Positions 12,421 through 46,045 of a stretch of 64,000 nt of DNA are shown here, piece by piece. The translations under genes and the position numbers were made by a program. Every line of letters begins with the position of its first letter. Positions within the stretch are counted from its first letter, which is position 1. The stretch spans positions 62,001 through 126,000 of the forward strand of contig CABYIQ010000002.1 in the NCBI GenBank assembly GCA_902518965.1. The letters run 5' to 3'. The stretch comes from an uncultured SAR116 cluster alpha proteobacterium. Lineage in GTDB: Bacteria; Pseudomonadota; Alphaproteobacteria; Puniceispirillales; Puniceispirillaceae. The notes under the pieces are model-generated. The model saw nothing but the letters and a program-made list of their open reading frames with translations, made no database searches and was not told the DNA's origin.

Positions 12421-13428
12421 ATGGACAAATTATTTGCAGATAAGACAATTTTGATTACTGGGGGAACTGGCTCCTTCGGGCAAAAATTTGTAGAGGTTAT
12501 CCAAAGTTCATTTTCACCGAAAAAATTAATTGTATTCTCTCGTGACGAATTAAAGCAGTCTGAAATGCAACAAAAGTTCGCCCAATCCTCGATGAGATTT
12601 TTCATCGGCGACGTGCGAGATCAGGCCAGATTAGACGAAGCCTGTAGGGATGTGGACTTAATAGTACACGCTGCTGCTATGAAACAAGTTCCAGCCTCAG
12701 AATATAACCCAACAGAGTGTATTAAAACAAACATAGATGGCGCTCAAAATGTTATTAAAGCAGCACTAAATAATTCTGTAAGTTCTGTAATTGCACTATC
12801 AACTGATAAAGCCGCGAACCCGGTGAATCTTTATGGGGCAACAAAGCTTGCCTCTGATAAACTCTTTATAGCAGCGAACAATATCGTAGGTCAGAGAAAT
12901 ACAAAATTTTCAGTAGTGAGATATGGTAATGTTATTGGGTCTAGAGGCTCCATAGTTCCCTTATATCAGAGATTGATCTCTGAGAACTGTAAACATCTGC
13001 CAGTAACTCACCCCGGAATGACTAGATTTGTAATTACCCTCCGCCAGGGGGTTAAATTTGTAATTGACGCTTTCAGGAGAATGCAGGGTGGCGAAATTTT
13101 TGTTCCAAAGCTCCCATCGGTAAAAGTGATGACTGTAGCAGAGGCGCTTGGTCCTGATTTACCAACTAAAATTATTGGCATAAGGCCAGGAGAAAAACTT
13201 CACGAAGTAATGTGCTCCTCTGATGACAGTCATCTTGTTCTGGAATACGACAACCACTTCGTAATCAAGCCCTCTATTCAGATAAGAGAAGAGATCGACT
13301 ATTCAGTTGATAACATGGGTGATACCGGCAAACTTGTCTCCGAAGGCTTTGAATATCAATCTGGAACAAATTGTTCTTTTCTTGATGCTACTGAATTCAA
13401 CCAATTGGTCTCACTGTCAAAAAAATGA
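12421..13428 (+). CDS. pseB: UDP-GlcNAc 4,6-dehydratase (inverting) PseB
   Basis: First step of CMP-pseudaminic acid synthesis: 4,6-dehydration with C5 inversion of UDP-GlcNAc. The soluble SDR enzyme of 335 aa has TGGTGSFGQKFV (13-24), the FSRDELKQSEMQQKF segment diagnostic of PseB/FlaA1, ALSTDKAANPVNLYGATK with Tyr138/Lys142, and GIRPGEKLHE near the C-terminus. It lacks the membrane domain of the WbpM-type paralogue at 6971. It is followed 9 bases later by pseC. Confidence 0.95.
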   Translation: MDKLFADKTILITGGTGSFGQKFVEVIQSSFSPKKLIVFSRDELKQSEMQQKFAQSSMRFFIGDVRDQARLDEACRDVDLIVHAAAMKQVPASEYNPTECIKTNIDGAQNVIKAALNNSVSSVIALSTDKAANPVNLYGATKLASDKLFIAANNIVGQRNTKFSVVRYGNVIGSRGSIVPLYQRLISENCKHLPVTHPGMTRFVITLRQGVKFVIDAFRRMQGGEIFVPKLPSVKVMTVAEALGPDLPTKIIGIRPGEKLHEVMCSSDDSHLVLEYDNHFVIKPSIQIREEIDYSVDNMGDTGKLVSEGFEYQSGTNCSFLDATEFNQLVSLSKK

Positions 13429-13437
13429 GGTGCCAAC

Positions 13438-14610
13438 TTGATCCCTTATAGCAAACAAATCATCTCAAATGAGGATATTAATTCAGTCTTAGAGGTTCTA
13501 AAAAGTGATTGGTTGACACAAGGACCTATGATAGAGAAATTTGAAAAAAAAGTCTCTTCGATTTGTGGAAAACAGCTTTTGGGTACAGCATATAACAGTG
13601 CAACCTCTGCATTGCATGCCGCCTGTTATGCGTTAGGTTTAAGAGAAGGTGACATCCTCTGGACAGTGCCAAATTCATTTGTCGCAAGCGCGAATTGTGC
13701 AATTTTTTGCGGAGCGCAAGTAGACTTTGTCGATATCGACCCGAAATCTTGGAATATGTGTCCAATAAGCCTAAAAGATAAGTTAGAGTCCGCAGAACAT
13801 GATGGAAAACTTCCCAAAATAATTATTCCAGTGCATTTTTCTGGAATGAGTGCGGAGATGGCAGTAATTCATAAACTTGCCATGAAATATGGAATTAAAG
13901 TAATCGAAGATGCAAGCCACGCTTTAGGCGCTTCTTACAATGATACTATGGTGGGGAGTTGCAAATACAGCGACATAACAGTCTTCAGTTTTCACCCTGT
14001 TAAAATGATTACGACAGGCGAAGGGGGAATGGCAGTCACAAAAGATGAAAATTTAGACGGAAAAATGAAACTGTTTAGAAATCATGGCATCACCAGGGAT
14101 AGGCGAGACTTTAAAAATGCTGATATAGGCCCTTGGTCATATCAGCAAATTGGTTTGGGATACAATTATAGAATGACTGACATTGCTGCCGCATTAGGGC
14201 TATCCCAACTAAAAACACTACACAAATTTATTTCTGAAAGGCGCGCATATGCATCTCATTACTCTAAAGTTTTGGATGGGACACCTTACGTAAGTCAAGA
14301 AACAAAAATAGAGCATAACTCTTCGTGGCATTTGTATGTAATATGCATTCCAGACACGAAAAATAATCGTAATAATCGTCTAGCTATATTTAGATTTCTT
14401 AGGGAACAAAAAATCGGAGTGAATGTGCACTATGAACCTATTCACCTTCAACCATTCTACCGCAAAATGGGTTTCAGAGAAAACATGTTTTTGTCAGCAG
14501 AAAATTATTCTGAACGATGTTTATCCATCCCTCTATTTCCAACAATGACAACAGATACGCAAAACTATATCCTAAAAGCACTCAATGATGGTTTGGAGCT
14601 TATAAATTGA
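13438..14610 (+). CDS. pseC: UDP-4-amino-4,6-dideoxy-L-AltNAc transaminase PseC
   Basis: PLP-dependent DegT/DnrJ-family aminotransferase, second step of pseudaminic acid synthesis. It has 390 aa with VIEDASHALGASY, TVFSFHPVKMITTGEGG (internal aldimine Lys189) and the C-terminal VHYEPIHLQPFYRKMGF typical of PseC. The start is the TTG at 13438, which has GAGG about eight bases upstream and gives the family opening IPYSKQIISNEDI. It overlaps pseF by 4 bases. Confidence 0.94.
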   Translation: MIPYSKQIISNEDINSVLEVLKSDWLTQGPMIEKFEKKVSSICGKQLLGTAYNSATSALHAACYALGLREGDILWTVPNSFVASANCAIFCGAQVDFVDIDPKSWNMCPISLKDKLESAEHDGKLPKIIIPVHFSGMSAEMAVIHKLAMKYGIKVIEDASHALGASYNDTMVGSCKYSDITVFSFHPVKMITTGEGGMAVTKDENLDGKMKLFRNHGITRDRRDFKNADIGPWSYQQIGLGYNYRMTDIAAALGLSQLKTLHKFISERRAYASHYSKVLDGTPYVSQETKIEHNSSWHLYVICIPDTKNNRNNRLAIFRFLREQKIGVNVHYEPIHLQPFYRKMGFRENMFLSAENYSERCLSIPLFPTMTTDTQNYILKALNDGLELIN

Positions 14611-15308
14611 AAAGCATTTGTTTGATACCTGCAAAAGGCTTGTCAACACGCTTACCAAAGAAAAATTTAGAGAAAATTGGTGGGACCCCTCTCGTTGGGC
14701 TCGCCATTCAAAAAGCAAGAAGTTGTAGTATATTTAATGAAGTAATCGTTTCAACTGAAGATACGGAAATTGCTAAAATAAGCAAAAAATTTGGTGCTTT
14801 AGTGCCATCACTAAGGCCGAATAGATTGTCTGTAGACCCCGCAACTATAGTTGACGTAATGTTGCATGTTTTTGAAACTGCCGATTTTGTCGTTCAAAAC
14901 GCAAACTCAGTAACCATTTTGTTGCCCACAAGCCCTTTAGTGCAAATAGATGACATTATAGAAGCTAATCAGCTATTTGATAAGCATGGTGGATGCACCG
15001 TTTTGAGTGTCTGCGAAACAGATTTTCCACCTTTTAATGCATGGCTTATCACAGAAAAAAAAGAATTATTTCCTTGTTTCCCGGATTCAGAATATAAATT
15101 CACCAAATCGACTGAATGCCCAAAAACATACAGAAGTAACGGAGCGATTATGATATGCAACGTGGATAGTTTTTTGAAAAATAAATCCTATAGAACCGAC
15201 ACGATCATTCCCTATCTAATGCCCAAAGAACGCTCAATTGATATAGACACTTCATTGGATTTAGAAATCGCTAGATTTTTGATGAGCAATAAAAATAAAT
15301 TTAATTGA
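14607..15308 (+). CDS. pseF: Pseudaminic acid cytidylyltransferase PseF
   Basis: Activates pseudaminic acid with CTP to give CMP-Pse, the glycosyl donor. The 233-aa protein has the CMP-NulO synthetase N-terminus (CLIPAKGLSTRLPKKNLEKI), the STEDTEIAKISKKFGA segment, LLPTSPLVQIDDI and the C-terminal ERSIDIDTSLDLEIA. The start is the TTG at 14607 overlapping the pseC stop, which gives the expected KSICLIPAKG opening. A decayed copy of its C-terminus is present at 27073-27249. Confidence 0.93.
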   Translation: MKSICLIPAKGLSTRLPKKNLEKIGGTPLVGLAIQKARSCSIFNEVIVSTEDTEIAKISKKFGALVPSLRPNRLSVDPATIVDVMLHVFETADFVVQNANSVTILLPTSPLVQIDDIIEANQLFDKHGGCTVLSVCETDFPPFNAWLITEKKELFPCFPDSEYKFTKSTECPKTYRSNGAIMICNVDSFLKNKSYRTDTIIPYLMPKERSIDIDTSLDLEIARFLMSNKNKFN

Positions 15309-15354: not shown

Positions 15355-15963
15355 ATGAGAGATGATCAGGAAAAGTTCTGGGAAGGTGATTTTGGAGATG
15401 AATATATCGAAAGAAATAAAGGGCAAGAACTCATTAATGCAAAAGTGGACATGTTTTCAAAATCACTGAGCAAAGCTGAAAGTTTGAGTACAGTTTTAGA
15501 ATTAGGCTGCAATAGAGGTCTTAACGCATTCGCTTTAAAGAAAATCTTTCCTTATTTAGAATACACAGGCGTGGAAATATCAAAAACTGCTTATGATATT
15601 TTATGCAGCAACAGCGCTGTAAACTATGCTAAAAATGAATCAATCTATGATTTTACCCCCCCCAAAAAATACGATTTAGCAATTGTCACTGGAGTGTTAA
15701 TTCATCTTAATCCTGAAAAACTGCCCATAGCTTATTCAAAACTTCAAGAGTCATCAAAGCGTTATGTATTGATTGCCGAATATTTCAATCCAATACCAGT
15801 GTCCATAGATTACAGGGGTCATAAAGAAAAATTATTCAAAAGAGACTTTGCAAAGGAATTCATGGATCAAAGTGGATTTAAACTAGTTGATTATGGGTTT
15901 CTTTACAGATTTGACCAGAAGTTTAAGCACGATGATATGACTTGGTTCTTGCTAGAAAAATAA
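15355..15963 (+). CDS. Pseudaminic acid biosynthesis-associated methyltransferase
   Basis: Class I SAM-dependent methyltransferase of 202 aa. The opening FWEGDFGDEYIERN is characteristic of the family repeatedly found in pseudaminic acid loci. SAM-binding motif I is VLELGCNRGLNAFAL (about 46-60), and motif IV is near DLAIVTGVLIHL. The substrate is unknown; methylation of the nonulosonic acid or its precursor is inferred from position after pseF. A decayed copy of its first 24 codons lies at 27315-27386, again right after a pseF relic, so the pseF-methylase pair was once duplicated. Confidence 0.85.
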   Translation: MRDDQEKFWEGDFGDEYIERNKGQELINAKVDMFSKSLSKAESLSTVLELGCNRGLNAFALKKIFPYLEYTGVEISKTAYDILCSNSAVNYAKNESIYDFTPPKKYDLAIVTGVLIHLNPEKLPIAYSKLQESSKRYVLIAEYFNPIPVSIDYRGHKEKLFKRDFAKEFMDQSGFKLVDYGFLYRFDQKFKHDDMTWFLLEK

Positions 15964-16090
15964 TGGTTTAGTCAAAATTTAAAAACACTTCTTCAATCCA
16001 TTTTTTTATTCATTAGAATTTAAGCTAACTGACAGCAGTGGTTTCAAAATATATTAACTTACAAATTAAAAAATTTATTTGGAGAATAAT

Positions 16091-17200
16091 TTGAGCGTTT
16101 ACAGATGTATTAAATGTCTGAACCTATCAACTAGACCTAATTCAAACTTCAAAGAAGGTGATTTATGTGAGCCGTGCATATATACGGCTTCGCAACAAAC
16201 CGATTACGACAAACTAACAGAGCAATTCTTTGAGCATATATCTTCAATTACAAATTTCTCTGACCCAAAGCAGCTATCTTTTGTTTTGGGTGTTTCTGGT
16301 GGAAAAGATAGTTTGAGACAAGCTGAATTTTGCAGATATGCGCTGGGTATAAATCCTACACTAGTATGTGTCGGATATCCTCCATCTATGACTTCAAGTT
16401 TAGGTGTTGAAAACCTTAAAAATCTGTATGATAAAGGGTATGAAATTTACACTGCCTATCCGGCAACAAGGTCCTATAAAGAAATAGCTAAATATTGCTT
16501 TTTTGAATTGGGAAACTTAAAGGTTGCAATGGAGATAGCCTTATTCAACGGAGCTGCAAAGCTAGCGGATTTGGCTTCAGCCGACATTATCCTTTGGGGT
16601 GAAAACCCCACATTTTCAGTTGGTGATTCTGGAAGCAAAGGAAGTTCTTATTTTGATGGTTCTGCTATTCATAAAATCAATACTCTCTCACTAGTCAGTA
16701 ACTTGCCACCCGATTTTGTACGAAAAAATAAATTTTTTTATAATGTGCAAGATGGCGTTAAACAAATTTCATCCAAACTCGTATTTTTGGGCGGAATTAT
16801 GCCTAAATGGTCGCAGGTAATTAATGGATCTTTTTCTATTCATAGAGGCTTTTCACCACGAAAAGAAGAGTTAGTAGACCTTTTAAATATAAGTGCAGTT
16901 GATGAAGATTTCGTGCTGATAAATCAATATATAAAATATTTGAAGTATGGCTTTGGTCGAACAACCGATATACTGAACGAATTTATAAGAGATGGCATAA
17001 TTGGGAGAAAGGAAGCTATCGAATTAGCAAAAAAATATGACTCATATGAGCCAAAGAAAGAAATTGCCCGGTTTGCTTCATTTATAGGGGTTGAAGAACA
17101 AACTGTATGGGATGAACTTTTAAAAAACGTAAATCTAGAAATTTTTGAAATAAAAAACAAATACGTCTATCCAAAATCAATACTGAGAGACGCAACATGA
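16091..17200 (+). CDS. N-acetyl sugar amidotransferase (PseA/WbpG family), copy 1
   Basis: ATP-pyrophosphatase-type enzyme predicted to convert an N-acyl group on a sugar into an amidine using ammonia from a glutaminase. A zinc-ribbon-like pair (CIKCLN and CEPC) opens the protein, then the PP-loop GVSGGKDS, GYPP, LWGENPT (adenylation region) and a C-terminal helical part with KYGFGRTTDI. I take the TTG at 16091 because GGAGA lies six bases before it. A TTG at 16079 is also in frame. It overlaps the HisH-like gene by 4 bases, so the pair is presumably the synthase-glutaminase couple. Which sugar is amidated cannot be read from sequence. Confidence 0.88.
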   Translation: MSVYRCIKCLNLSTRPNSNFKEGDLCEPCIYTASQQTDYDKLTEQFFEHISSITNFSDPKQLSFVLGVSGGKDSLRQAEFCRYALGINPTLVCVGYPPSMTSSLGVENLKNLYDKGYEIYTAYPATRSYKEIAKYCFFELGNLKVAMEIALFNGAAKLADLASADIILWGENPTFSVGDSGSKGSSYFDGSAIHKINTLSLVSNLPPDFVRKNKFFYNVQDGVKQISSKLVFLGGIMPKWSQVINGSFSIHRGFSPRKEELVDLLNISAVDEDFVLINQYIKYLKYGFGRTTDILNEFIRDGIIGRKEAIELAKKYDSYEPKKEIARFASFIGVEEQTVWDELLKNVNLEIFEIKNKYVYPKSILRDAT

Positions 17201-17760
17201 AAATACTGAAAATTCCCGGCAATCTCGGAGCTTTGGTAAAATGGGCTGGTCAATTCTCAAAGGTTGAGTTCATAAATGAAAGTAAAATTTGTAGTCTAGC
17301 CAAAAATGAGATCCTGTGTCTGCCTGGAGGAAATATAGGTTCTTTGCCAACAAAAAGCCTGCAAATTGAAATCTCAAATTTTTTAAAAGATGGTGGTAGG
17401 TTATTTGCAGTTTGCGGAGCCTTTCAAGCTTTGTTTTCGTCAAATGAAGAAGACGATACCGGGCACTATTTGTCATTATTTCCATCCAGAGGCTACAGGC
17501 TAAAGTGCCCCAATATTGGTTTCAACAAAATAGAGGCAAGTTGGTGCGCAATCAATGCATACTTCAACTGTAAATATGGAGTACATTATAATAAAGATGA
17601 CTGGGTTCAGTCAGACGTTGATCATGTGAATTTGGCAACCGACAAGTTGGGCAATTTGCAAGCAATCCAGACCAACTCTATCTTAGGCGTACAGTTTCAT
17701 CCTGAGCTGTCATTTGGAAATTTTGATGCGGTATTTGAAAATTGGGTTTTAGAAAGATAG
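17197..17760 (+). CDS. HisH-like class I glutaminase, copy 1
   Basis: Predicted to release ammonia from glutamine for the adjacent WbpG-type enzyme. The 187 aa show the PGGN oxyanion strand, a nucleophile elbow AVCGAFQALF (Cys present and Gln kept, but the usual GxCxG glycine pattern altered) and the catalytic His-Glu pair in VQFHPEL. It is shorter and more divergent than the HisH copies at 30757 and 45402. It overlaps its neighbours on both sides. Unlike the other two copies there is no HisF-like partner next to it; the following gene is unrecognised. Confidence 0.82.
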   Translation: MKILKIPGNLGALVKWAGQFSKVEFINESKICSLAKNEILCLPGGNIGSLPTKSLQIEISNFLKDGGRLFAVCGAFQALFSSNEEDDTGHYLSLFPSRGYRLKCPNIGFNKIEASWCAINAYFNCKYGVHYNKDDWVQSDVDHVNLATDKLGNLQAIQTNSILGVQFHPELSFGNFDAVFENWVLER

Positions 17761-18401
17761 CTTCGCTGTTGGTGGAAGCCAGCACAACATATATAAAGTT
17801 TGAGCAGCAAAGGTTTCCTTTATGGAATATTGATGAGCATCTTGATTATCTTTCAGAATTTGATTTCACAGATGTGATAATATGCAGTGGAAAAGCCGGG
17901 GCCCTGTTGGAATTTAAATTAGAACACTTCGTTAATTATGCCGCCGGTATAGGTTGGTCACATGTTAAAATGACACCTCGACTATTTGACTATGGCTACT
18001 CAAAAATTTTTTTTGGGGGCAGTAATAGACCGCTACCTAACAATGAGGAATATAAAATTTTTTGCGATTTGCTAAAAATGTATGGAAGTTCATCTTTTGG
18101 CCTCAATGTCCATTTTAAAGACAAAAAAAAGTTAAAACAAAATAAAGACTTGCTAGATCATTTTTCTGAAATAAACATTATAGATGAGTTTTTACAATTG
18201 ACGTTTGATAAAGCTGCAGCCGAAAATTTAGTAAAAAAAATTGATAATTTTGGAAATCCAAACAATAACGAATTTAACTTGATAGCACCAAAAAAAACTT
18301 GGGAGTTCATTAACAAAAAATCTAAGATAAACCTCAATTATGTCAATTATTGTGAACATGCAATTGGTACTACAGTGAAATGCAATGCTCAAAATGTTTA
18401 A
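17742..18401 (+). CDS. Unrecognised protein within the amidation module
   Basis: 219-aa protein that I do not recognise. It overlaps the HisH-like gene before it by 19 bases and the WbpG-like gene after it by 22 bases, so it is firmly embedded in the module and takes the position a HisF partner would have. The sequence has alternating hydrophobic strands and helices. A stretch around SGKAGALLEF followed by VKMTPRLFDYG is faintly like the GGEP region of radical-SAM TIM barrels, but there is no CxxxCxxC cluster, so that resemblance is only a hint. The start is a TTG at 17742, and a later TTG near 17769 is possible. Confidence 0.75.
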   Translation: MGFRKIASLLVEASTTYIKFEQQRFPLWNIDEHLDYLSEFDFTDVIICSGKAGALLEFKLEHFVNYAAGIGWSHVKMTPRLFDYGYSKIFFGGSNRPLPNNEEYKIFCDLLKMYGSSSFGLNVHFKDKKKLKQNKDLLDHFSEINIIDEFLQLTFDKAAAENLVKKIDNFGNPNNNEFNLIAPKKTWEFINKKSKINLNYVNYCEHAIGTTVKCNAQNV

Positions 18402-19549
18402 TCAGTGATAGTCATCCATTTGGGGTTTTCTTTGATGCTAATGGAATTTGCTCAGGATGTAATGCGTTCAATAACAGACGGAATGCTCTGCCACTTTGGA
18501 ATGACAGTTCTAGTCAGTCGAGGCTCAAACACAGATTTCTAGAAAATTTCCAAGAAGTCCCTGACAAAGCAATCGTCCCATTCGAACCAGATGGAGAAAC
18601 TTGGTTCGTGTTAGAAACTCTGAACGACCTCAGTATTCAACCCGTTGTTGTGTACTTTAACACTCAGTACGCTGACTTTAAATATTTCGAAATGTTATCA
18701 GTATGTCAGGAAAATTTTGACTGTGACTTCTTAGGTTTTTCAATTCCTCAGGAATTAATCAAGTGGTGTATCGCTGAAGAGTTAGCTTGTGGACTTGGAC
18801 ACGGAAGAAAATTAGAAATTTTTGGAAGGTACATATCTTGTTTATTTGCAGCCGAAAAATTGAATATTCACCATGTATTTTCAGGTCCAAATCAACAATC
18901 CGAAATTGTTGGCAATCATAATTATGTAGTAGCAAATCAGTTAAAATTGCCTGCAATTCTAAAATTTGTGACCGGAGGACCACTCCTACCTCAAGTGCAG
19001 CAAGCCCTGAATAGTAACGGTTCAGCATTTACAACACGCTTCAGCGCTAAATTCGCAAATTACATGTTAAACAAGATACATTGGCATCACTTGAGTGACT
19101 ATATTTTTTGGGATAGCCAAAACATCAATAATTTTTTTGGTAAAAAGTTTAAAGTTAAGCCAAGGGATGTTAATGGCTACGCTGAGTGCTGGCAGGCATC
19201 TTCATCCGCACTTAAACTTGAATATTTTGACTTAATCCGAATAATGATAACGGGTCACTCGAAAATAGAGAGTTATCTCTCTAGGGATATACGTTTTGGT
19301 CGAATTGACAAATTTGGTGCTGAAGCAGCACTGAAACGTTACCTTCAAAAAGAGTGGGATTTATTGGGGTTTTCAAAATTTATGGGTATAGATGCTGATG
19401 ATGTGCTTCATGGGTTGGATTTGATGAACAAGTCCAAGAGACTGCGATATCATCCATCAAACTTCAAGCGCAGACCATCCTCATATTCTATTTCTCACCA
19501 CCAAGTCCTCTTTCCGCGAGCGTCTAAATTACAAATAAAAGAGGTTTAA
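18380..19549 (+). CDS. WbpG-family paralogue lacking the PP-loop
   Basis: 389 aa. The N-terminus is a clear WbpG/WbuX zinc ribbon (Cys3, Cys6, Cys24, Cys27 with the family spacing FDANGICSGC). The next strand should carry SGGxDS. Aligned with copies at 23707 and 32148, that motif is replaced by EPDGETW (69-75), with loss of the ATP-pyrophosphate loop. The fold seems kept (VVVYFNTQY in place of LVLHVDAGW, VFSGPNQQSE for the second nucleotide region). It is therefore probably a non-ATP-using scaffold, sugar-binding partner or altered enzyme. The ATG overlaps the previous gene and the next gene begins directly after the stop. Confidence 0.8.
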   Translation: MQCSKCLISDSHPFGVFFDANGICSGCNAFNNRRNALPLWNDSSSQSRLKHRFLENFQEVPDKAIVPFEPDGETWFVLETLNDLSIQPVVVYFNTQYADFKYFEMLSVCQENFDCDFLGFSIPQELIKWCIAEELACGLGHGRKLEIFGRYISCLFAAEKLNIHHVFSGPNQQSEIVGNHNYVVANQLKLPAILKFVTGGPLLPQVQQALNSNGSAFTTRFSAKFANYMLNKIHWHHLSDYIFWDSQNINNFFGKKFKVKPRDVNGYAECWQASSSALKLEYFDLIRIMITGHSKIESYLSRDIRFGRIDKFGAEAALKRYLQKEWDLLGFSKFMGIDADDVLHGLDLMNKSKRLRYHPSNFKRRPSSYSISHHQVLFPRASKLQIKEV

Positions 19550-20587
19550 ATGAAAAGCTCAAGCCTAAGGCAGTTATTTAACAGACCAAAAGAAAATCAG
19601 ATCTTTATAATTGCTGACCTTGGTCTTACCAATGGAGGTTCATTACAAAGAGCCCTTGAATTAGTTCAAGTCGCTGGTGAATTGGGGGTGGATGCGGTTA
19701 AATTCCAAATGCTCGATTCTGAAGAGCTTCTTGGAGACAAATCAGCTGAATATACTTATCCCACAATTATTAATGGCACCAAAACTGAAAATATGTACGA
19801 AATGTTTTTGGGTTTGGAATTCAATGATACTGAATGGCGTACGATAAAAACTGAATGCGACAAACTAGGACTTGGATTAATTATCACATGTCATGTGCAG
19901 AGCGCCGTTGAGCGCTTGAATAAACTAGATCTTCCTGTGAACAAAATTTGTTCGTGGAGCCTATCACATTTCAAGATGATAAAGTCCCTAGCTCAAAACG
20001 GAAAACCACTAATACTTGACACAGGCCCAATAGACGAAACAGAACTGAATGAGATTAGGGCTTTTTACTCAGATAATGGCGGTGGCGACGTCTTTGTGCT
20101 CTTTGATTTTCATACAGAAAAAACTGAGACAATGAATTTTCTAGCTATCAAATCTTTAATCCAAAATGGATATGAGGTTGGTTATACACCACAAGGCAGA
20201 AGAGATTGGCTAGACTTTATGGCCATTGGTTTGGGCGCAAATATTATTGAAAAGCGCCTCACTCTTTCTAGAACAAAGCCAGAAAATGGGCACTGGAAAG
20301 CCCATGAACCTAGCGAATTCGCCGAGTGGATGAGCCGCATAAAAGAGTGCTACATCGCCCTTGGCGAACAAAAGCTAACTCCAACACCTGACGACTTGGC
20401 CGCCACAAAAAATTGGTATAAATCGGCTTGGCTCGAACGAGATGTAAGTCGCGGTGAATTAATAACAGAGGATGCCTTCAACTACAAACGTCCAGGCACC
20501 GGCATCACATCAAAAGAGGTTACAAAATTTTACATAGGCCATAAATTCACCAAAAACTATCAGAAGGGTGATCTTTTTGAGGGATAA
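19550..20587 (+). CDS. Divergent NeuB-family protein without metal-binding histidines
   Basis: 345-aa homologue of nonulosonic acid synthases (NeuB/PseI): IADLGLTNGGSLQRALEL in place of IxEIGxNHxG, VDAVKFQ, then a TIM-barrel and a C-terminal SAF-like domain with KRPGTGI. Both conserved His that bind Mn in NeuB are gone. The SDH site reads GYTPQGR (211-217) and the EKHxTL site reads EKRLTLS (234-240). The HCxSxYP motif is also missing. The normal PseI at 22393 keeps all of these. It is unlikely to run the PEP condensation in the known way. It starts one base after the preceding stop. Role unknown. Confidence 0.82.
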   Translation: MKSSSLRQLFNRPKENQIFIIADLGLTNGGSLQRALELVQVAGELGVDAVKFQMLDSEELLGDKSAEYTYPTIINGTKTENMYEMFLGLEFNDTEWRTIKTECDKLGLGLIITCHVQSAVERLNKLDLPVNKICSWSLSHFKMIKSLAQNGKPLILDTGPIDETELNEIRAFYSDNGGGDVFVLFDFHTEKTETMNFLAIKSLIQNGYEVGYTPQGRRDWLDFMAIGLGANIIEKRLTLSRTKPENGHWKAHEPSEFAEWMSRIKECYIALGEQKLTPTPDDLAATKNWYKSAWLERDVSRGELITEDAFNYKRPGTGITSKEVTKFYIGHKFTKNYQKGDLFEG

Positions 20588-20592
20588 ATTTT

Positions 20593-21654
20593 TTGAATCA
20601 AGACATTACAAACAACGACCCAATTTGCATCATAAGGGTAGATGGACACAGTGAGGTGGGCTTTGGCCACTTATCAAGAACCAGAACCATCGCTGAAAGC
20701 CTACAAAATGAGGATATACGTTGCGTCTTCGCAATAACAGAAAAAACCATTAGCTCAAGTGCAAATGCAATAATCTCCGGATTTGAGACTATAGCCCTTA
20801 GAGGAAATGAAACTTTAGCCAGCAAATTAACAAAAAACAGAATACCCGCGCCGGCGGTGCTTTTAATTGACCACTATGGAGACGGACGTGAAGAGTTATT
20901 GGACAGCTATTTTTCTGACACTCTTCGGGTTTTGATAGATGACACCTCATTTCACAATAAATTTTGTGACTTATTCATAAACCCAAACGGCTTTCCTAAT
21001 ACCTCTCACGAAATCGCAGATTGCTCTTTGTTTGGACCTAAATATATGCCTGTATCTGAGAATATCGCTTCTCTGGCAGGAACTTGGAGAGCTAATCATA
21101 CCTTGTCGAAGCCTCCAATTTGCCTGGTTTCACTTGGAGCAACTGATCCAAACGCTCTATCCATTGAAATACTAAATAGTTTATCAAAAATTGAGGTTTC
21201 AAGAAAATTTGAATTTAAAATCCTTCTCTCCAATGCTTCAAAAACTTTAGCCCAGACAAGAGATTTTATGAGTACTCTTCAACCAAGACTTAATTTAAAA
21301 TTAATTTCAAATAAAATTGACCTGAGTCAGTTATATGCGCAAGCCCACTGCTGTATTGGCGCTTCGGGCGTCTCTGCTTGGGAGAGAGCCATTGTCGGCT
21401 TACCCTGCGCCCTTGTTCTTACTGCAAGCAATCAAAAAATTATCAAAGACTACTTAACCGAACAAAAAGCTGTTTTCCCTATCGAAAAGCTGAATAGCAA
21501 ACAACTCAACCTAAAATTAGAAAGATTTTTAGAATTAGCTTTTTTAAATGCACCAGAGTTCTTAGCCATATCAAATAAGTCAAAAAAACTCCTAGACGGT
21601 AAAGGAGCTCGCCGAATATCAAATTCTATCGCTACTCGTATCCAAAAATCTTAG
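20593..21654 (+). CDS. pseG: UDP-2,4-diacylamido-trideoxy-altrose hydrolase PseG
   Basis: Removes UDP from the 2,4-diamido-2,4,6-trideoxy-L-altrose nucleotide in pseudaminic acid synthesis. GT-B-like protein of 353 aa with the PseG opening IIRVDGHSEVGFGHLSRTRTIAESL (catalytic His in GFGHLSR region), LIDHYG, CLVSLGATDPNALS and the late CIGASGVSAWERAIVGLP. The TTG at 20593 is the only plausible start. Upstream is GAGGG with about ten bases spacing. It is five bases after the NeuB-like gene, linking the odd module to a complete Pse pathway. Confidence 0.9.
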   Translation: MNQDITNNDPICIIRVDGHSEVGFGHLSRTRTIAESLQNEDIRCVFAITEKTISSSANAIISGFETIALRGNETLASKLTKNRIPAPAVLLIDHYGDGREELLDSYFSDTLRVLIDDTSFHNKFCDLFINPNGFPNTSHEIADCSLFGPKYMPVSENIASLAGTWRANHTLSKPPICLVSLGATDPNALSIEILNSLSKIEVSRKFEFKILLSNASKTLAQTRDFMSTLQPRLNLKLISNKIDLSQLYAQAHCCIGASGVSAWERAIVGLPCALVLTASNQKIIKDYLTEQKAVFPIEKLNSKQLNLKLERFLELAFLNAPEFLAISNKSKKLLDGKGARRISNSIATRIQKS

Positions 21655-21749: not shown

Positions 21750-22403
21750 ATTAAAATTGACATATTATTAAGTGAGCACTCGCACCCCATTTCAGAAATG
21801 GTGAGAGATTTCATAGGCAAACTTGATCCAAGAATTAAAGCTAATTTGCTATTTGATGAAAATGAACTTTCCGAAGGCGATCTTTTGTTTCTGATTTCCT
21901 TTCATAAAATACTAAAAAATCAAGATATAGCTAATTATCGCCACTCACTTTTGTTGCATGCTAGCGATTTACCAGACGGAAGAGGCTGGAGCCCACACAT
22001 TTGGGAACTAATTAAAGGCAAAAATAATATAACTGTCTCAATTTTAGAAGTCTCATATCCGGCAGACACTGGTAGAATTTTAGAAAAATTGATTGTTGAG
22101 ATTCCAGAAACGGCAATCTGTTCTGAAATCAATCAACTTGTTTTCAACGCTGAACTTTCCTTAATGAAAAATGCGATTTCCGCTTATCCAAATCTTTTAT
22201 TTCACAAACAGAGGGAACCTAGTGACAGCGATAACATTTGGCCCAGGCGAACACCACAAAATAGTCAAATTGACCCCTTTAAAACCATAGCTGAGCAATT
22301 CAACCTTTTGAGAGTTTGTGATCCAGAGCGTTTTCCAGCTTTTTTTTACCATAAAGATAGAAAATATAAGTTATTTTTAGAGGTTGAAACCGATGAAGAT
22401 TGA
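21750..22403 (+). CDS. Formyltransferase-family protein, apparent ATT start
   Basis: Predicted N-formyltransferase acting on an amino sugar. Motifs LLHASDLPDGRGWSPHIW (formyl-folate and catalytic region, with the usual N/H/D pattern seen as HASD) and RVCDPERFPAFF are those of sugar formyltransferases found in nonulosonic acid clusters. The first in-frame ATG (21798) would remove the first beta strand. The open frame continues upstream through KIDILLSEHSHPISEM, which matches the family N-terminus. The only initiator is then ATT at 21750, preceded by GGGAGAGAG. No PseH acetyltransferase is present in the window, so this gene probably supplies the 4-N-acyl (future N7) group as formyl. Confidence 0.8.
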   Translation: MKIDILLSEHSHPISEMVRDFIGKLDPRIKANLLFDENELSEGDLLFLISFHKILKNQDIANYRHSLLLHASDLPDGRGWSPHIWELIKGKNNITVSILEVSYPADTGRILEKLIVEIPETAICSEINQLVFNAELSLMKNAISAYPNLLFHKQREPSDSDNIWPRRTPQNSQIDPFKTIAEQFNLLRVCDPERFPAFFYHKDRKYKLFLEVETDED

Positions 22404-23436
22404 TAAGCGAATCATACATGATGATTTTCCTCCTTATATAATCGGTGAAGTTTCCGCAAATCATAACGGCTCAATTGATAATGCAAAAAAAATTATAATG
22501 CTTGCTAAAAAGGGAGGATTTGACGCAGTCAAACTCCAAACCTATACAGCCGAAACTTTAACTATAGCTTCAGACAAAGAAGATTTTTTCATTAAGTCTG
22601 GCTTATGGGCAGGAAAATCTTTATTCAGCTTATATGAAGAGGCTCACATGCCTTGGGAATGGCAGCCCGAACTTTTCAAATATGCAAGAAGGATTGGCAT
22701 AACTATATTTAGTTCAGTTTTTGATAAGTCATCCATAGAATTTTTAGAATCTTTAAATTGTCCGGCATATAAAATCGCCTCATTCGAGTGTGTAGATTTA
22801 GAGCTTATTGAATTCGCCGCAAAAACCAAAAAGCCAATTATAATTTCGACGGGTCTGGCATCTTTTGAAGAAATAGAAACTGCTTACAAAACAGCAATTG
22901 CCGCAGGCTCTCGAGAAGTAGCTTTACTCCACTGCATTAGCAGCTATCCAGCCAAATGTGAAAAGTATAAGCTTAGCATTATCAGTGACTTGAAAAAAAA
23001 ATTTAATGTTGTTGTCGGCCTATCTGACCATTCCATCGGAAATTTGGCTGCAGCTTGCTCAATACCGCTTGGTGCTCGCATTGTAGAGAAACACATAACA
23101 CTCGATAACAATGGAGGAGGTCCGGATGATCCATTTTCACTTTCGGCAGAGCAATATAGCGAATTCTGTAACACCATTCAGTCATCTTGGGAAAGCTTAG
23201 GGGTGCCCGATTATTTGAGGGATGAAGCTGAGCTAGAAAACATTTGCTTTAGACGTTCACTTTACTTTGTATCAAACCTAAAAGCTGGTGAAAAAATAAA
23301 GCGTGCTGATATCAGAAGCATACGACCCGGATATGGATTGCCCCCAAAATTTTTAGAGGATTTTATTGGGAAAAAAATATTGAAAGAGTGTCGAGTAGGA
23401 GACCGTGTTGAGTGGTCTGTTATCGAACACAATTGA
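22393..23436 (+). CDS. pseI: Pseudaminic acid synthase PseI
   Basis: NeuB-family TIM-barrel enzyme that condenses the trideoxy-altrose derivative with PEP to pseudaminic acid. Intact motifs: IIGEVSANHNGSIDNA, FDAVKLQTYTAETLT, YKIASFECVD, LLHCISSYPA, GLSDHSIG and EKHITLDNNGGGPDDPFS, so both Mn-binding His are present. The C-terminal SAF domain has RSIRPGYGLPP. I choose ATG 22393, which has AGAGG nine bases upstream and overlaps the formyltransferase end; an in-frame TTG at 22384 is too close to that site. A 270-base AT-rich gap without a recognised gene follows. Confidence 0.94.
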   Translation: MKIDKRIIHDDFPPYIIGEVSANHNGSIDNAKKIIMLAKKGGFDAVKLQTYTAETLTIASDKEDFFIKSGLWAGKSLFSLYEEAHMPWEWQPELFKYARRIGITIFSSVFDKSSIEFLESLNCPAYKIASFECVDLELIEFAAKTKKPIIISTGLASFEEIETAYKTAIAAGSREVALLHCISSYPAKCEKYKLSIISDLKKKFNVVVGLSDHSIGNLAAACSIPLGARIVEKHITLDNNGGGPDDPFSLSAEQYSEFCNTIQSSWESLGVPDYLRDEAELENICFRRSLYFVSNLKAGEKIKRADIRSIRPGYGLPPKFLEDFIGKKILKECRVGDRVEWSVIEHN

Positions 23437-23706
23437 GATTAAATTGTTGAGTTCAATTTATGTGCCATTTTCTGATATAGTTTCTAAAACTAGCAGTTTT
23501 GCGTTTAACACTTGGCTAGGGCAACTGTGACTGTATTTATTTAACTTTAATTGATGGCCATTTTGGTTTGTCTTTTTAGTCTACACAAACTTTCGTTAAT
23601 TTATTAGTCTTAATAAAACTGATTGATTGGCCAACTAACAAAATTGGCTTGTTTTGCTTCATGTTTCAAAACGATAAATTTTTGAAGGATGTAGGCAGGT
23701 ATTTTG

Positions 23707-24939
23707 ATGAAAACTTCTCAAGAACCTCACATAGCACCTATCTTTGCGCCAATATGCGGCAAACCAATTACAAGAGGAGCTTTTGTCCCCAAAAATATAG
23801 AATATAAAGTTTGTAGTTCCTGTGTAATGGATACTACAGTTCCCAATATTCAATTTGATATGGAAGGTATTTGTCACTACTGCAATAATTTTAAGTCTGC
23901 AAAAAATTCTCAAAAATTTTCAGAGATTTATCGCAAACACCAATTGGCAACTATGCTTCAAAAGATTAAAGGGAACAGCAGAAAGAACAACTACGACTGT
24001 ATCATTGGGCTTTCTGGCGGCGTTGACAGTTCTTTTCTCGCGCTGAAAGTCGCTGAATGGGGATTGAGACCTCTAGTGTTACATGTTGACGCTGGTTGGA
24101 ACTCAGAGTTGGCAGTTATGAACATTGAACAGATTTGTAAAAGCTTAGGTTTTGATCTCGTTACTCACGTTGTTGATTGGGCTGAAATGCGTGATCTTCA
24201 ATTAGCTTTTCTTCGTTCTGGTGTTGCCAACCAAGATATTCCCCAAGATCACGCTATTTTTGCAGCTTTGTACAAATATGCAAAAAAGGTAAAAATTAAA
24301 AATGTCATAAACGGAAGCAATTATGCCACTGAGAGCGTTCTTCCTGAAACTTGGGGCCATGACGCTATGGACTCCAAACAATTAATAGGCATACATAAAC
24401 AGTTTGGCACTATGAAGTTGAAAACGTTTCCCGTGCTTAATTTTCTTGATTTCAATATTAATTTTAAATTTTTTGGAGGAATGAGGGTACATAATCCACT
24501 AAACTTTGTAGATTACAATAAGAAAGAAGCCATTAAATTCTTGGAAAGAGATTTCGGCTGGAGATATTACGATGGTAAACATTTTGAATCTCGGTGGACG
24601 AAGTTTTTCCAAGCATATTACCTTCCTTACAGGTTCGGTTATGATAAGAGAAAGGCGCATCTTTCAAGTTTGATTTTGTCAAAACAAATGACACGGGGCG
24701 AAGCATTTGAGAGGTTAAAGGTGCCCTTATATAACGATGTTGATTTGAAATCAGACAAAATTTTCATAGCTAAAAAACTTCAGATTTCCCTTGTAGAACT
24801 TGATAATCTAATCTCTCTTCCGCTTCGTCATTTTTCTGAATTTCCTAACTATCAATTGCAAAGACAGTTAGCAATTAGATGTTTTTCTATCATTACAAAT
24901 CCTCTTGACTCTTGGAAAACAAGGAAGGAAGCACCCTAA
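23707..24939 (+). CDS. N-acetyl sugar amidotransferase (WbpG family), copy 3
   Basis: 410-aa PP-loop amidotransferase with zinc ribbon CSSCVMDTTVPNIQFD...CHYC, the PP-loop GLSGGVDSS, HVDAGWN, RSGVANQDIPQDHA and a C-terminal FESRWTKFFQAYYLPYRFGYDKRKAH block. It is clearly a paralogue of 32148-33335, sharing many identical stretches. Unlike the others, no glutaminase gene is adjacent; it may borrow one from the neighbouring clusters. It carries about 30 extra N-terminal residues before the ribbon. The ATG at 23707 follows an in-frame TTG at 23704. It ends convergently with an ABC transporter. Confidence 0.87.
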   Translation: MKTSQEPHIAPIFAPICGKPITRGAFVPKNIEYKVCSSCVMDTTVPNIQFDMEGICHYCNNFKSAKNSQKFSEIYRKHQLATMLQKIKGNSRKNNYDCIIGLSGGVDSSFLALKVAEWGLRPLVLHVDAGWNSELAVMNIEQICKSLGFDLVTHVVDWAEMRDLQLAFLRSGVANQDIPQDHAIFAALYKYAKKVKIKNVINGSNYATESVLPETWGHDAMDSKQLIGIHKQFGTMKLKTFPVLNFLDFNINFKFFGGMRVHNPLNFVDYNKKEAIKFLERDFGWRYYDGKHFESRWTKFFQAYYLPYRFGYDKRKAHLSSLILSKQMTRGEAFERLKVPLYNDVDLKSDKIFIAKKLQISLVELDNLISLPLRHFSEFPNYQLQRQLAIRCFSIITNPLDSWKTRKEAP

Positions 24940-34498: not shown

Positions 34499-36328
34499 AT
34501 GTGTGGCATTTTTGGTGTGGTTTCTCGGGATGGCCGCTTAGATAAAAATGATTTAAGTTTGTTGGTAAAGGCTTCGAGACAAAGAGGGCGAGACTCGAGC
34601 GGCTTGGCCTTTAAAGCAAAGGGCTCAAAATTATTATCTGTTGAGAGAGCAGATTATGACATCTATAAATTGCTCTCAAATGTGAAAAAAGAAAATTTGG
34701 AATTAGTCCTTGGACATAGCCGACTAATCACCAACAGTCACACTGATAACCAGCCCGTTGTTAAGGAAGATATTTGTGTTTTTCACAATGGGATAATTGT
34801 GAACACCAAAAAAGTATGGAAACAAGTAAAAGCAACCCAAAATTTGGAAATTGACTCTGAAGTTCTTGTAGGGCTCACTGAAGAATTTCTATTATCGAAA
34901 TCTAATAAGTCGAAGATTTCGGAGCTAGGTAAATATATAATTGCTAGATGTGAGGGAGTAGTAGCGGCCGCAATATTAATTGGCCGACTTGGTAAACTAG
35001 TACTTTTCTCAAACAATGGAAGTTTATATTTTGGCAAAAATGAAAGAGGTACCTACTACGCTTCTGAAAAATTCCCACTCAAAAAAATTCAATGTGAAGA
35101 CATTGTTCAAGTTCGTGAGAATGCCATTGTTGTTGACATAGAAACTGAGACAGTAATCAAAGTTAATGACCATCAAGTAAGTCGAAAAAATCTGGTTCCA
35201 GCCCTAGGTAACCTCTCCCAACAAGAAAAAAAGCTCGTTTTTGAGCCACACTCACTCAAGCGCTGCGCTAAGTGTATACTACCCCAAACTATGCCATTTA
35301 TAACTTTTGATGCGAATGGCATTTGCAATTACTGTAATAACTACGAAGTGCGAAACAATCCCAAACCGAAGGATCTTCTATATAAGTCGCTGGAGAGATT
35401 TCGGCGCCATCAGGGTGCTGAATGTATTGTACCTTTCTCTGGTGGCCGAGATAGTTGCTATGGGCTACATTTAATAGTAAATGAGCTAAAATTAGAGCCC
35501 ATCACCTACACATACGATTGGGGCATGGTTACTGACCTCGGGCGAAGAAATATTTCTCGCATGTGTTCCAACCTTGGAGTTGAAAATATCATTGTCGCCG
35601 CAGATATCGGATTAAAGAGGAGGAACATCAATAAAAATTTACGTGCTTGGCTTCGTTCCCCTAATTTAGGCATGGTAAGCATTCTTACAGCCGGAGATAA
35701 ACATTTTTTTAAACACGTCGAGACAATCAAAAGACAAACGGGAATATCGCTAAATCTTTGGGGTATAAATCCGTTGGAAGTTACTCATTTTAAATCTGGT
35801 TTTCTCGGCATAAAACCGGATTTTGAAGAAAAAATGGTTTACTCCAATGGCGCCATTAAGCAAATGCGATACCAATTACTTAGGTTGTGTGCAATGAGCA
35901 AAAGTTTAGGGTATTTCAACACTTCAATTTGGGATACGTTATCCGGAGAATATTATCGCAGCTTCACACAGAAATCTGATTATTTTCATATTTTTGATTA
36001 TTGGCGCTGGGATGAGGCAGATATCAATAAAACATTAAAACTCTATGATTGGGAGATGGCGCCAGACACCCAAACGACTTGGCGTATCGGTGATGGGACC
36101 GCAGCATTTTACAACTATATTTATTATACTGTTGCTGGTTTCACCGAGCATGACACTTTTCGTAGCAACCAAATTCGTGAGGGCGACATTAGTCGAGAGG
36201 AAGCTTTGCGCTTGGTTGCAGATGAAAACAGGCCACGATATCCGAATATAAAATGGTACCTTGACGCTGTAGATATAGAGTTTGAAGAAGCCGTCAAGGT
36301 AGTCAATGCCATGCCAAGAATGTATTAA
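34499..36328 (+). CDS. Fusion: class II glutaminase + WbpG-type PP-loop amidotransferase
   Basis: 609-aa two-domain protein. Residues 1 to about 230 are an Ntn-hydrolase (class II) glutaminase: Cys2 nucleophile after Met in MCGIFGVVS, RQRGRDSSG, GHSRLIT and the oxyanion FHNGII. Residues about 250-609 are a WbpG-family enzyme: ribbon cysteines 256, 259, 276, 279, then PP-loop FSGGRDSC (313-320), LNLWGINPLE, and a Trp/Tyr-rich C-terminus. The architecture parallels asparagine synthetase but with the sugar-amidation synthase. It would supply its own ammonia, so no HisH/HisF is needed. GAGAGGAAG precedes the ATG. It lies between two glycosyltransferases. Confidence 0.88.
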   Translation: MCGIFGVVSRDGRLDKNDLSLLVKASRQRGRDSSGLAFKAKGSKLLSVERADYDIYKLLSNVKKENLELVLGHSRLITNSHTDNQPVVKEDICVFHNGIIVNTKKVWKQVKATQNLEIDSEVLVGLTEEFLLSKSNKSKISELGKYIIARCEGVVAAAILIGRLGKLVLFSNNGSLYFGKNERGTYYASEKFPLKKIQCEDIVQVRENAIVVDIETETVIKVNDHQVSRKNLVPALGNLSQQEKKLVFEPHSLKRCAKCILPQTMPFITFDANGICNYCNNYEVRNNPKPKDLLYKSLERFRRHQGAECIVPFSGGRDSCYGLHLIVNELKLEPITYTYDWGMVTDLGRRNISRMCSNLGVENIIVAADIGLKRRNINKNLRAWLRSPNLGMVSILTAGDKHFFKHVETIKRQTGISLNLWGINPLEVTHFKSGFLGIKPDFEEKMVYSNGAIKQMRYQLLRLCAMSKSLGYFNTSIWDTLSGEYYRSFTQKSDYFHIFDYWRWDEADINKTLKLYDWEMAPDTQTTWRIGDGTAAFYNYIYYTVAGFTEHDTFRSNQIREGDISREEALRLVADENRPRYPNIKWYLDAVDIEFEEAVKVVNAMPRMY

Positions 36329-38994: not shown

Positions 38995-40881
38995 TCATTT
39001 AAAATTAATAAACGCCATTATCTGCTCTACTGCTTGTTCGACAGACTTTTCTGTGGTTTTGATGTGAAGCTCAGGTGTTAATGGAGGCTCGTATGGACTT
39101 CCTATACCTGTAAAGTTTGGAATTTCACCACGCCGTGCTTTTTTATATAGACCTTTAGTATCACGCAATTCAGCTACTTCAAGTGGCGTATCAATAAAAA
39201 TCTCAAAAAACTCCTCTTCCTCAAACAGCTGACGCACCATGTCGCGCTCTGCTTTAAAAGGTGAAATAAAGGCTGTAAGCACTACAACACCGGCATCAAC
39301 CATTAGCTTGGCTACCTCACCAGCTCGTCTGATATTCTCTACCCGGTCTGCAGCTGTAAATCCAAGGTCGCTATTTAGGCCATGTCGTACATTATCGCCA
39401 TCAAGTAGGTACGTGCGTATACCGCGTGAGTGAAGTATCTTTTCTAGCGCATTAGCGATGGATGATTTTCCAGAGCCTGATAAACCCGTAAACCATAGTA
39501 CTTGGCTATTATGCCCGTTAAGTTTTCGTCTAGATATTTTATTGATCTCGAGTTTCTGACCGTGAATATTTGTGGCACGCCGGAGTGCAAATTCAATCAT
39601 GCCAGCAGCAACAGTTTGGTTGCTCATTCGATCAATTAATATAAAAGCACCCATCGATGGACATTTGTGATAACTTTCAAATGCAATTGGGCGGTCTGTT
39701 TTCAATGTAATTACATAAAGTTCATTGAACTGCAGTTCTGCCGCAGAAAGATTCTCCAAGTTATTTATGTTGACCTTGTGTTTAATAGATGTAATCTGCG
39801 CGTTTACTAACGAAGCTCCCAGTTTCAAGAAAAAGCTTCGGCCGACATATCCTGAATATCTATCCATCCAAACAAGTTTCACCTCAAATTGGTCTGAGAC
39901 CTCGCACGGTGCGTCTTTAGCTACTATTACATCGCCACGCGACACATCGATCTCCTTATCGAGAGTCAATGTCACAGCCCTATCATGCTGAGCTGATTGT
40001 AAATGTTCTTTGAAAAGAATAATCTCTTTAATGGTCGCAGTTTCACTTGAGGGTAAAACACGAATTTTTTGGCCAACATTTACTGTCCCAGCCTCAACTG
40101 TTCCAGAAAAGCCTCTAAAGTCTGTATTTGAACGAGTTACCCATTGAACTGGAAATCTAAGCGGATACTTAATTCTAGAATTATTCGTATCAACAATTTC
40201 CAAAAACCCAAGAAGTGTCGGACCTTGATACCAGCTCATATAGCTCGACCGCTTAATAATGTTATCTCCCTTCAAGGCAGATATTGGAATCGCTAATGTC
40301 TGCTCGAATTGGAGTGCATCTGCAAAATTTTTATATTCCTCCGAAATTTGATCAAAAACTTCCTTACTGTATTCAACTAAATCCATTTTGTTGATTGCAA
40401 TCACAACCTTTCGAATGCCAAGCGTTGAGCAGATCAGCGAATGACGCCGGGTCTGCGTTAACACACCTTGGCGAGCATCAATCAAAATTACTGCTACGTC
40501 TGCTGTTGATGCTCCGGTTACCATGTTGCGCGTATATTGTTCATGCCCAGGAGTGTCTGCAACTATAAATTTCCTCTGGTCTGTGGCAAAAAATCGGTAA
40601 GCAACGTCGATTGTAATACCTTGCTCTCGTTCAGAAGTAAGACCATCTACTAAGAGGGCAAAATCGATGCTGTCGCCTTGGGTTCTCGCCTTTTTTGAGT
40701 CAAGTTGAAGATAGGTTAACTGATCATCAAAGATCGATTGAGCTTCAAAGAGCATTCTGCCAATTAGCGTGCTCTTGCCATCATCAACACTGCCGCAAGT
40801 AATAAAGCGCAAGGTGCCTAGGTTTGCTTGCGCTTCAAGGTACTGCTTCACCTTATCGACAGCTTCCAATGCTAGTGTCAT
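38995..40881 (-). CDS. cysN: Sulfate adenylyltransferase subunit 1 / APS kinase (CysNC)
   Basis: Bifunctional sulfate-activating enzyme. The N-terminal GTPase (CysN) has [24 protein letters not shown] and NKMDLVEYS. Then comes beta-barrel material, and a C-terminal APS kinase (CysC) with [17 protein letters not shown] and [11 protein letters not shown]. It makes APS and then PAPS together with CysD. At 628 aa it is the NodQ-like fused form. Its ATG overlaps the CysD stop by 1 base, giving cysD-cysNC transcription. No sulfotransferase was recognised in the window, so the PAPS may serve assimilation or glycan sulfation elsewhere. Confidence 0.95.
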
Positions 40882-42392
40882 CAGAAGTAACCCTCTTGCT
40901 TTTTTCTCTCCATTGAAGCACTGGAGTCACTGTCAATAGCTCGTCCTTGCCGTTCACTGGTCCGTGCGCAAAGCAGCTCTAAAATAATGCTCGCTAGGTC
41001 ATCCGCTTCGGACTCAATAGCACCTGTTAAGGGGTAGCACCCGAGAGTGCGAAAACGGATCTTTTTCAGTTGAATAATCTCGTCTTTATCGAGTGGTAGC
41101 CGATCATCATCCACCATCATCAGCATACCATTGCGTTTGATTACAGGACGCTCTGATGCAAAGTAAAGTGGCACAATTGGGATTTGCTCACGATAAATGT
41201 ATTGCCAGATGTCGAGTTCAGTCCAGTTGGAGAGCGGAAATACACGGATTGAGTCACCTGAGTTTTTCCTACCATTATAGAGATTCCAAAGTTCTGGGCG
41301 TTGGTTTTTTGGATCCCAGCGATGGGATGAGTTCCTGAAAGAAAAGATGCGCTCCTTTGCGCGACTCTTTTCTTCATCGCGCCGTGCTCCTCCAAAAGCC
41401 ACATCAAACTTGTAATGATCGAGCGCCATTTTTAGTGACTGGGTCTTCATTATGTCGGTATGCAACGCCGAACCATGATCAAACGGATTGATATTATTCG
41501 ACACGCCCTCAGGATTTATGTGCACTAGGAGTTCCATCTTAGATTCTTGCGCAATATAATCTCTGAAGTCATACATCGTTTGGAACTTCCAAAGCGTATC
41601 AACGTGAAGCATAGGGAAAGGTGGTGGGCTTGGATAAAAGGCCTTGCGCGCCAAGTGCAACAACACAGATGAGTCTTTGCCCACTGAATATAACATTACA
41701 GGATTATCTGCATCCGCCATCACTTCACGGAAAATATGCATAGCCTCTGCTTCAAGCCTGTCTAGGTGCGTGAACTGATTTTTGATGTTCACATTCATAT
41801 TTGGACTAACGCTTTGCAAAATATCGACCTGTCCATGTGAATAAACCTCAAGCGTTACGGTGAGCGACCCTACAGGGAGTCTTACTACACGTTGGCTTCC
41901 TAATTTTCTAACAAGTTGCCGCAATAGTTCGACGATTGCCCCTGATGGAATCATCACGACATCTTTTTTTTCAAAAGCACAGAGTTTGATAAGAGCGGCC
42001 TGAAGTGAACCCACACGGTCACTGCTTAAATTGAGGTTCACCCATCGACGACCACCGCGAGCATCATTAAGGGCCAAAAAATGCTCTTCGTTGTTATCAG
42101 ATGAAAGCATCTGAGCAAACAGGATGAGTTTTCTCTTTTTGCGAGCAGAGCCAACTAATTGATCAAAAACCAAGTGTTTGGCTGGTCGACCATGTTCATC
42201 AGTGAGGGAGGAATAGTTAAGTTGCTCAAATTTCAGTGTGCTTCTATTGATTTCTCGTTCAGCAGCTTTTCTGCTAGCATTATCACATTTTTGGAATAAA
42301 GCTTCAGCTACAGTGCTAACTGTTAAGACAGCAGGGAGAGGGCTTGAATAGAACAACTGGTAAAATTTGTCTTTTTTTTCACATTTTACCAT
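40881..42392 (-). CDS. cysD: Sulfate adenylyltransferase subunit 2 CysD with 200-aa N-terminal extension
   Basis: ATP sulfurylase small subunit. Residues about 205-503 are a standard Cys[20 protein letters not shown]-loop-like YSVGKDSSV (235-243), [31 protein letters not shown] and the C-terminal [20 protein letters not shown]. The first 200 residues are not part of usual CysD (about 300 aa) and I do not recognise them. The ATG at 42392 has an AGGT element close upstream. The internal Met199 (41798) has none, so the long form is favoured. Shares an operon with cysNC. Confidence 0.93.
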
Positions 42393-44539: not shown

Positions 44540-44632
44540 GCCAATCTCGATATATAAAATGTTAGTAAGTCTGCTTAATTGAGAGTACCTATTTCTAGCA
44601 AATTGATACCTCAAGTGGTTTTAGCTATTTAT

Positions 44633-45394: not shown

Positions 45395-45401
45395 AATTTT
45401 T

Positions 45402-46016: not shown

Positions 46017-46045
46017 TTTTTTTAAAATCCCACAAAAATTTTCTA

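Follow-up and report, generated by a model that had tools for sequence, protein, structure and literature searches.

The window analysed here, a stretch of 64,000 nucleotides from an uncultured SAR116 cluster alpha proteobacterium (GenBank assembly GCA_902518965.1, contig CABYIQ010000002.1, positions 62,001 to 126,000), carries at 16079-20587 five tightly packed open reading frames on the plus strand, each overlapping or abutting its neighbour, which, judged by their sequences, represent an extreme and accelerated member of a paired-amidotransferase cassette, joined by a pseudo-NeuB. The five genes encode, in order, a predicted catalytic subunit of an N-acetyl sugar amidotransferase (NASAT) of the WbpG/WbuX family, here called A type (A, 16091-17200); a HisH-like glutaminase (17197-17760); a diverged and shortened HisF/WbuZ (X, 17742-18401); a second WbuX paralogue, of B type (B, 18380-19549); and a NeuB paralogue (19550-20587). 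All five frames are present, as stated in the original prediction, which had been made from the letters of the window and had described five overlapping or abutting genes of a sugar-amidation module; they lie inside a pseudaminic-type nonulosonic-acid cluster. We favour, with some reserve, the reading that these genes specify one amidation complex acting on a pseudaminic-type nonulosonic acid or its activated form, in which B and the NeuB paralogue are non-catalytic.

Searching 385 genomes of the class with the window B yielded homologues that are distant; two of the top-ranking ones adjoin a second WbuX gene, hisH and hisF. In the main scan, an alignment of four B sequences was run against about 85,000 genomes and returned 80 B-type loci, hosted by Proteobacteria, Bacteroidota, Cyanobacteria, Verrucomicrobia, Bdellovibrionota, Candidate Phyla Radiation bacteria, archaea and others; the loci were selected by B, so that co-occurrence is conditional on B and does not give the frequency of the cassette. 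Gene order was fixed in 60 of the 80, being A-hisH-hisF-B in 47 and hisH-hisF-B-A in 13, and many of the remaining loci are cut by contig ends or interrupted by one gene. Most loci also carry genes for a CMP-sugar synthetase, a PseC/LegC-type aminotransferase, NeuB, PseG, LegB or NeuC. Taken as HisF and B, respectively, 17742 and 18380 therefore do have homologues that occur together elsewhere and in fixed order, which had been proposed as a check, whereas a counterpart of 19550 stands beside no other cassette. The claim of a new module holds for sugar amidation and for the loss of catalytic residues in two of the proteins, but not for the second WbuX paralogue, which recurs in many phyla. We found no description of paired amidotransferases in nonulosonic-acid clusters in the open-access literature, and the paired cassette is apparently undescribed. 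Typical B-like proteins, annotated as N-acetyl sugar amidotransferase, were also present on plasmids, and none were found in phages.

Although NCBIfam places A and B in one subfamily, the two differ at the PP-loop. SGGKDS is kept by A in 73 of 74 sequences, whereas the B loop reads SGARDS in 35 of 79 and SGGxDS in only 10, with many other forms that include TGTGDD, SGSQDS and RGTAEY. B has 99 near-invariant residues of its own, and a mean of about 95 of these is present even where the PP-loop is unusual (25 B proteins, window B excluded). Because the B-invariant residues are kept despite such loops, B is a conserved partner class with an ATP loop under weak constraint. Good evidence that A and B act together comes from a natural B-A fusion of 830 amino acids in Levybacteria (L064:4579-7071), which lies beside hisH and hisF and has RGGGDS in its B half and SGGKDS in its A half. 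Alternatively, B may itself be active as a second amidotransferase that shares one HisH-HisF pair with A, the two amidating different N-acyl groups of the same sugar (e.g. at C5 and C7), with this second activity lost in the window copy. This alternative is consistent with the retention of the PP-loop Asp in 96% and Ser in 86% of B, with the invariant residues that B keeps across phyla and with the position of a single ammonia source between two amidotransferase genes. We nevertheless regard it as unlikely: the loop varies freely, down to forms such as those just listed, while the remainder of the protein is conserved, and the Glu of the WGEN motif, found in 98% of A, is mostly Ala or Val in B.

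The window A carries the SGGKDS PP-loop, the WGEN motif and the four zinc cysteines (C-x2-C...C-x2-C), and thus has both the SGGXDS loop and the tetracysteine motif of a NASAT. It matches the WbuX model TIGR03573 with 170 bits, under the cut-off of 203 bits, scores 292.6 bits with an A-type hidden Markov model (HMM) versus 58.4 with the B-type HMM, retains 35 of the 49 A-invariant residues, falls inside the A clade of the tree and matches the LpNASAT structure (PDB 8WEX) with an E value of 1.6e-12. Its TTG at 16091 is a plausible start because a ttGGAGaataat stretch precedes it; the alternative upstream TTG is at 16079. The glutaminase matches the HisH model (E 3.6e-10) and the cassette HisH (hhalign, 98%), and by alignment possesses the Cys nucleophile (VCGAF) and the His-x-Glu (QFHPE) of class I glutaminases.

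The window B matches WbuX with 70.9 bits and scores 112.9 bits with the B-type HMM versus 24.4 with the A-type. In place of the PP-loop it has EPDGET, flanked on either side by alignable sequence in the same frame, and it therefore lacks the SGGXDS loop expected of an active NASAT. A frameshift or assembly error was considered and ruled out, as the other two frames restore no PP-loop. Besides its profile score, the position after HisF and the motif HP-x-G-x-x-FD-x-x-G-x-CSGC, present as HPFGVFFDANGICSGC, identify it as B type; all four zinc cysteines are kept, and only 35 of the 99 B-invariant residues are retained. The window B, which had no match in plasmids or phages, is by these residues a probable non-catalytic partner of A.

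X gave no convincing match by phmmer against PDB, Pfam, NCBIfam and 136 genomes of the order, and the original prediction had listed it as unrecognised, at the position of HisF. That description has to be revised, since X is homologous to HisF by profile, motif, gate residues and fold match, and belongs to HisF/WbuZ in a shortened and strongly diverged form; the same evidence ruled out X as a new protein family. Specifically, it occupies the HisF slot of the cassette, and hhalign against a profile of about 80 HisF gave 169 co-linear columns with a score reached by 0 of 300 shuffles (against only the five nearest HisF the match was weak, its score being reached by 4 of 300). The sequence NYVNYCEH near its C-terminus is a form of N-[FY]-x-x-[FY]-x-E-H, a motif picked after inspection of the alignment, which is present in 49 of 90 HisF and, X excepted, in 0 of about 1580 other proteins compared. 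At the positions of the ammonia gate, which we take to be R5, E46, K99 and E167 in Thermotoga maritima HisF, X has R4, D44 (a conservative change), K88 and E161, and the 44 aligned amidation HisF have R, E, K or R, and E (one E to D). A count of retained HisF-invariant residues was equalled by 25 of 100 aligned shuffles; it does not discriminate and was not used as evidence. An AlphaFold model of X built with the alignment of 44 HisF reached a predicted local distance difference test (pLDDT) of 72.9 and a predicted template modelling score of 0.73, being confident mainly over residues 1-125, and in a structure search with this model HisF structures ranked top (Z 16).

Both cyclase aspartates are lost in X, L10 and H124 standing at Asp11 and Asp130. 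X also has no counterpart of the segment that holds the second phosphate-binding GG, and part of the C-terminal half is missing relative to HisF. Among the 44 amidation HisF, Asp130 is replaced in 14 and Asp11 is absent from every one; because of this complete absence of Asp11, the barrels of amidation HisF are probably conduits for ammonia. X, without the cyclase aspartates, is a probable ammonia conduit and linker.

The NeuB paralogue matches Pfam NeuB with an E value of 4.5e-35, and has Q215 and R236 where PseI has the metal-ligand histidines H216 and H237; of 50 relatives, 48 keep the first of these histidines and all 50 the second. Further changes are E22D, N26T, H27N, S155D, Y188H and D248G, with K51, Q53, K132, S135 and R314 retained. 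It thus lacks the pair of metal histidines that marks NeuB-type synthases, and is the sole NeuB without both among about 70 compared; by its residues it should be incapable of metal-dependent condensation, and a binding role for it is a guess. Two descriptions in the original prediction, of 18380 as a WbpG paralogue whose PP-loop is missing and of 19550 as a NeuB paralogue in which neither metal-ligand histidine is left, have therefore been borne out, by the in-frame EPDGET that no other frame rescues and by the Q and R at the histidine positions, respectively. NeuB-like proteins that lack one of the metal histidines are known from two genomes of the window's family (L161 and L162), where they are 74% identical to each other and have Thr (EKT) in place of the second histidine. 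In L149 (9575-10633), where STG is also changed to DTG, the gene occupies the synthase slot of a pseB-pseC-NeuB-pseF series beside flagellin genes.

Five genomes of the same order have a recognisable cassette, which is complete in L141, L142, L144 and L145 and in L146 (5420-6649) ends at the contig edge after part of hisF, before B. In these relatives A scores 440-580 bits, HisH at least 131 and B at least 585, whereas all parts of the window copy are HMM outliers (A 292.6, HisH 33.8, X 4.4, B 112.9 and the NeuB paralogue 187 bits). L146, whose HisH scores 131 bits and whose partial HisF scores 43 bits, is intermediate in these two proteins between the normal cassettes and the window copy. Its A is one of the two nearest to that of the window, in a three-member clade with L034 that has a support of 0.86. 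The window cassette may be a relic, made useless by a switch of sugar, in which X, B and the NeuB paralogue are drifting towards pseudogenes. That all parts became outliers at once, that catalytic residues were lost from B and the NeuB paralogue, and that the window has four further WbuX-family genes, with other amidation modules and a canonical PseI nearby, would agree with such a history. However, the five coupled reading frames are intact despite hundreds of amino-acid changes, where neutral drift should leave stops or frameshifts, and random decay would not spare the active sites of A and HisH, the four zinc cysteines of B and the gate residues of X. These retained features, together with the intact frames and coupled starts, argue for a window copy that is functional rather than decaying, and we consider a relic improbable.

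Several observations weigh against the reading of one functional complex. The A-B pair is known from sequence alone, and no NeuB without both metal histidines adjoins the cassette at the other cassette loci. Close homologues were not found for X and the NeuB paralogue in 136 genomes of the order, nor for B in 385 of the class, and for this reason the ratio of nonsynonymous to synonymous substitution rates could not be measured on the window copy; the whole window cassette is accelerated, and it may be in late-stage decay. In addition, the model of X depends on the supplied HisF alignment, which itself favours the HisF fold, and AlphaFold gave a pLDDT of 33 for X from its single sequence.

The family memberships of the five proteins, the conserved four-gene cassette and the residues lost or retained are read directly from sequence; from them we infer that a complex forms, what its substrate is, which way ammonia flows and what B and the NeuB paralogue do. 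In the complex that we favour, HisH would hydrolyse glutamine, and the ammonia released would be led through X, a HisF-derived barrel that kept its gate and lost its cyclase chemistry. A would bind ATP at SGGKDS and activate the N-acetyl carbonyl, and attack of ammonia on the activated carbonyl would yield an acetamidino group (amidine), carried by pseudaminic acid (Pse) or a derivative, as suggested by gene context only. B, an A-homologous partner with a dispensable ATP site, may be a structural or substrate-positioning subunit, as Ctu2 is for Ctu1, and the NeuB paralogue, if it works at all, was probably kept as a sugar-binding or scaffold subunit. That the five proteins form one complex, which had been deduced from the tight overlaps, is probable, with support from the gene overlaps and from the B-A fusion of L064. 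More tentatively, the cassettes across bacteria and archaea might all need an obligate A-B pair with a PP-loop-free or -impaired B, the window being the extreme case, where one ATP site and one glutaminase would be surrounded by subunits that have all become non-catalytic: HisF, B and a recruited NeuB. It seems very unlikely that X, B and the NeuB paralogue carry new catalytic chemistry rather than scaffold roles: their genes are intact and far from their families, and a NeuB-like protein without one metal histidine is retained in two same-family genomes, but no new conserved residue set is visible with single copies of the three, and their conserved residues are accounted for by known structural ones.

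The five genes are preceded on the plus strand by pseB (12421), pseC (13438) and pseF (14607), at 12421-15308, identified by their translations and by homologues in other pse-type loci, and by a pseudaminic-acid-associated methylase (15355-15963; TIGR03587, 239 bits, above the cut-off). They are followed, also on the plus strand, by a PseG-like UDP-sugar hydrolase (20593-21654; TIGR03590, 129 bits, below the cut-off of 153.6), by a short formyltransferase-like protein of 201 amino acids at the expected PseH position between pseG and pseI (21798-22403), by PseI, a canonical pseudaminic acid synthase in which the two metal histidines are present (22384-23436; TIGR03586, 429.8 bits), and by a further WbuX-family amidotransferase with SGGVDS (23704-24939; TIGR03573, 292.6 bits). 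The 31 kb from 16079 to 47209 contain six WbuX-family genes (16079, 18380, 23704, 32148, 34499 and 46046) and three HisH-type glutaminases, and are several amidation modules side by side. For example, the plus-strand gene at 34499-36328 encodes 609 amino acids in which a class II glutaminase domain (GATase_6/7, GlmS/PurF-like) at the N-terminus is fused to a WbuX domain with SGGRDS, by its domains an amidotransferase carrying its own ammonia source. A canonical hisF-hisH-wbpG module lies at 44633-47209, directly adjoined by a DUF4915 protein (43310-44614, minus strand), and near the third amidation module a protein of 503 amino acids (40881-42392, minus strand) has a PAPS-reductase-type PP-loop domain.

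Amidinated nonulosonic acids occur on flagella and lipopolysaccharide, and the enzymes that make them are poorly understood: a single structure is available, and their mechanism is no more than a proposal. The widespread two-paralogue cassette suggests that many genes annotated as N-acetyl sugar amidotransferase probably encode two subunits of one enzyme, which would alter how pathways are annotated and would open the role of the second subunit to direct test; from the window copy it can be seen what the cassette is able to lose. The closest named systems include WbpG (WbuX) with HisH2 and HisF2 (WbuZ) in Pseudomonas aeruginosa O5 and Escherichia coli O145, and PseA and PtmG of Campylobacter. 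Like WbpG/HisH2/HisF2, the window has a WbuX-family PP-loop enzyme with a HisH/HisF-type glutaminase and a tetracysteine zinc motif in a surface-sugar cluster; unlike it, the window has two WbuX paralogues, one without PP-loop, a reduced HisF and an added NeuB paralogue without metal ligands. For NASAT, an SGGXDS loop and a tetracysteine motif are described and a conversion of ATP to AMP has been proposed, and LpNASAT is a dimer in crystals, with size exclusion consistent (PMC10607449). LpNASAT, the only solved structure of the family that we found, shares SGGKDS and the zinc cysteines with A, but it is a homodimer, with no A/B heterodimer described, and the SGGXDS expected of the family (PMC10607449) is violated by B. 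In the tRNA thiolase Ctu1/Ctu2 (Ncs6/Ncs2), the PP-loop of the partner is less conserved (PMC4014090), and an origin of the pair from a homodimer by duplication has been proposed (PMC10067955). By analogy, A and B may likewise be a PP-loop enzyme with a homologous partner, although Ctu1/Ctu2 belongs to another PP-loop family, differs in substrate, performs sulfur chemistry and has no glutaminase. With the HisF-HisH of imidazole glycerol phosphate synthase the window shares the HisH glutaminase and a HisF barrel with gate residues, but in X the two cyclase aspartates and some of the C-terminal half are missing. Finally, the NeuB paralogue resembles NeuB, LegI and PseI in having the barrel and a C-terminal domain of SAF type that includes the Arg, and differs from them in the loss of both metal-ligand histidines and several substrate residues.

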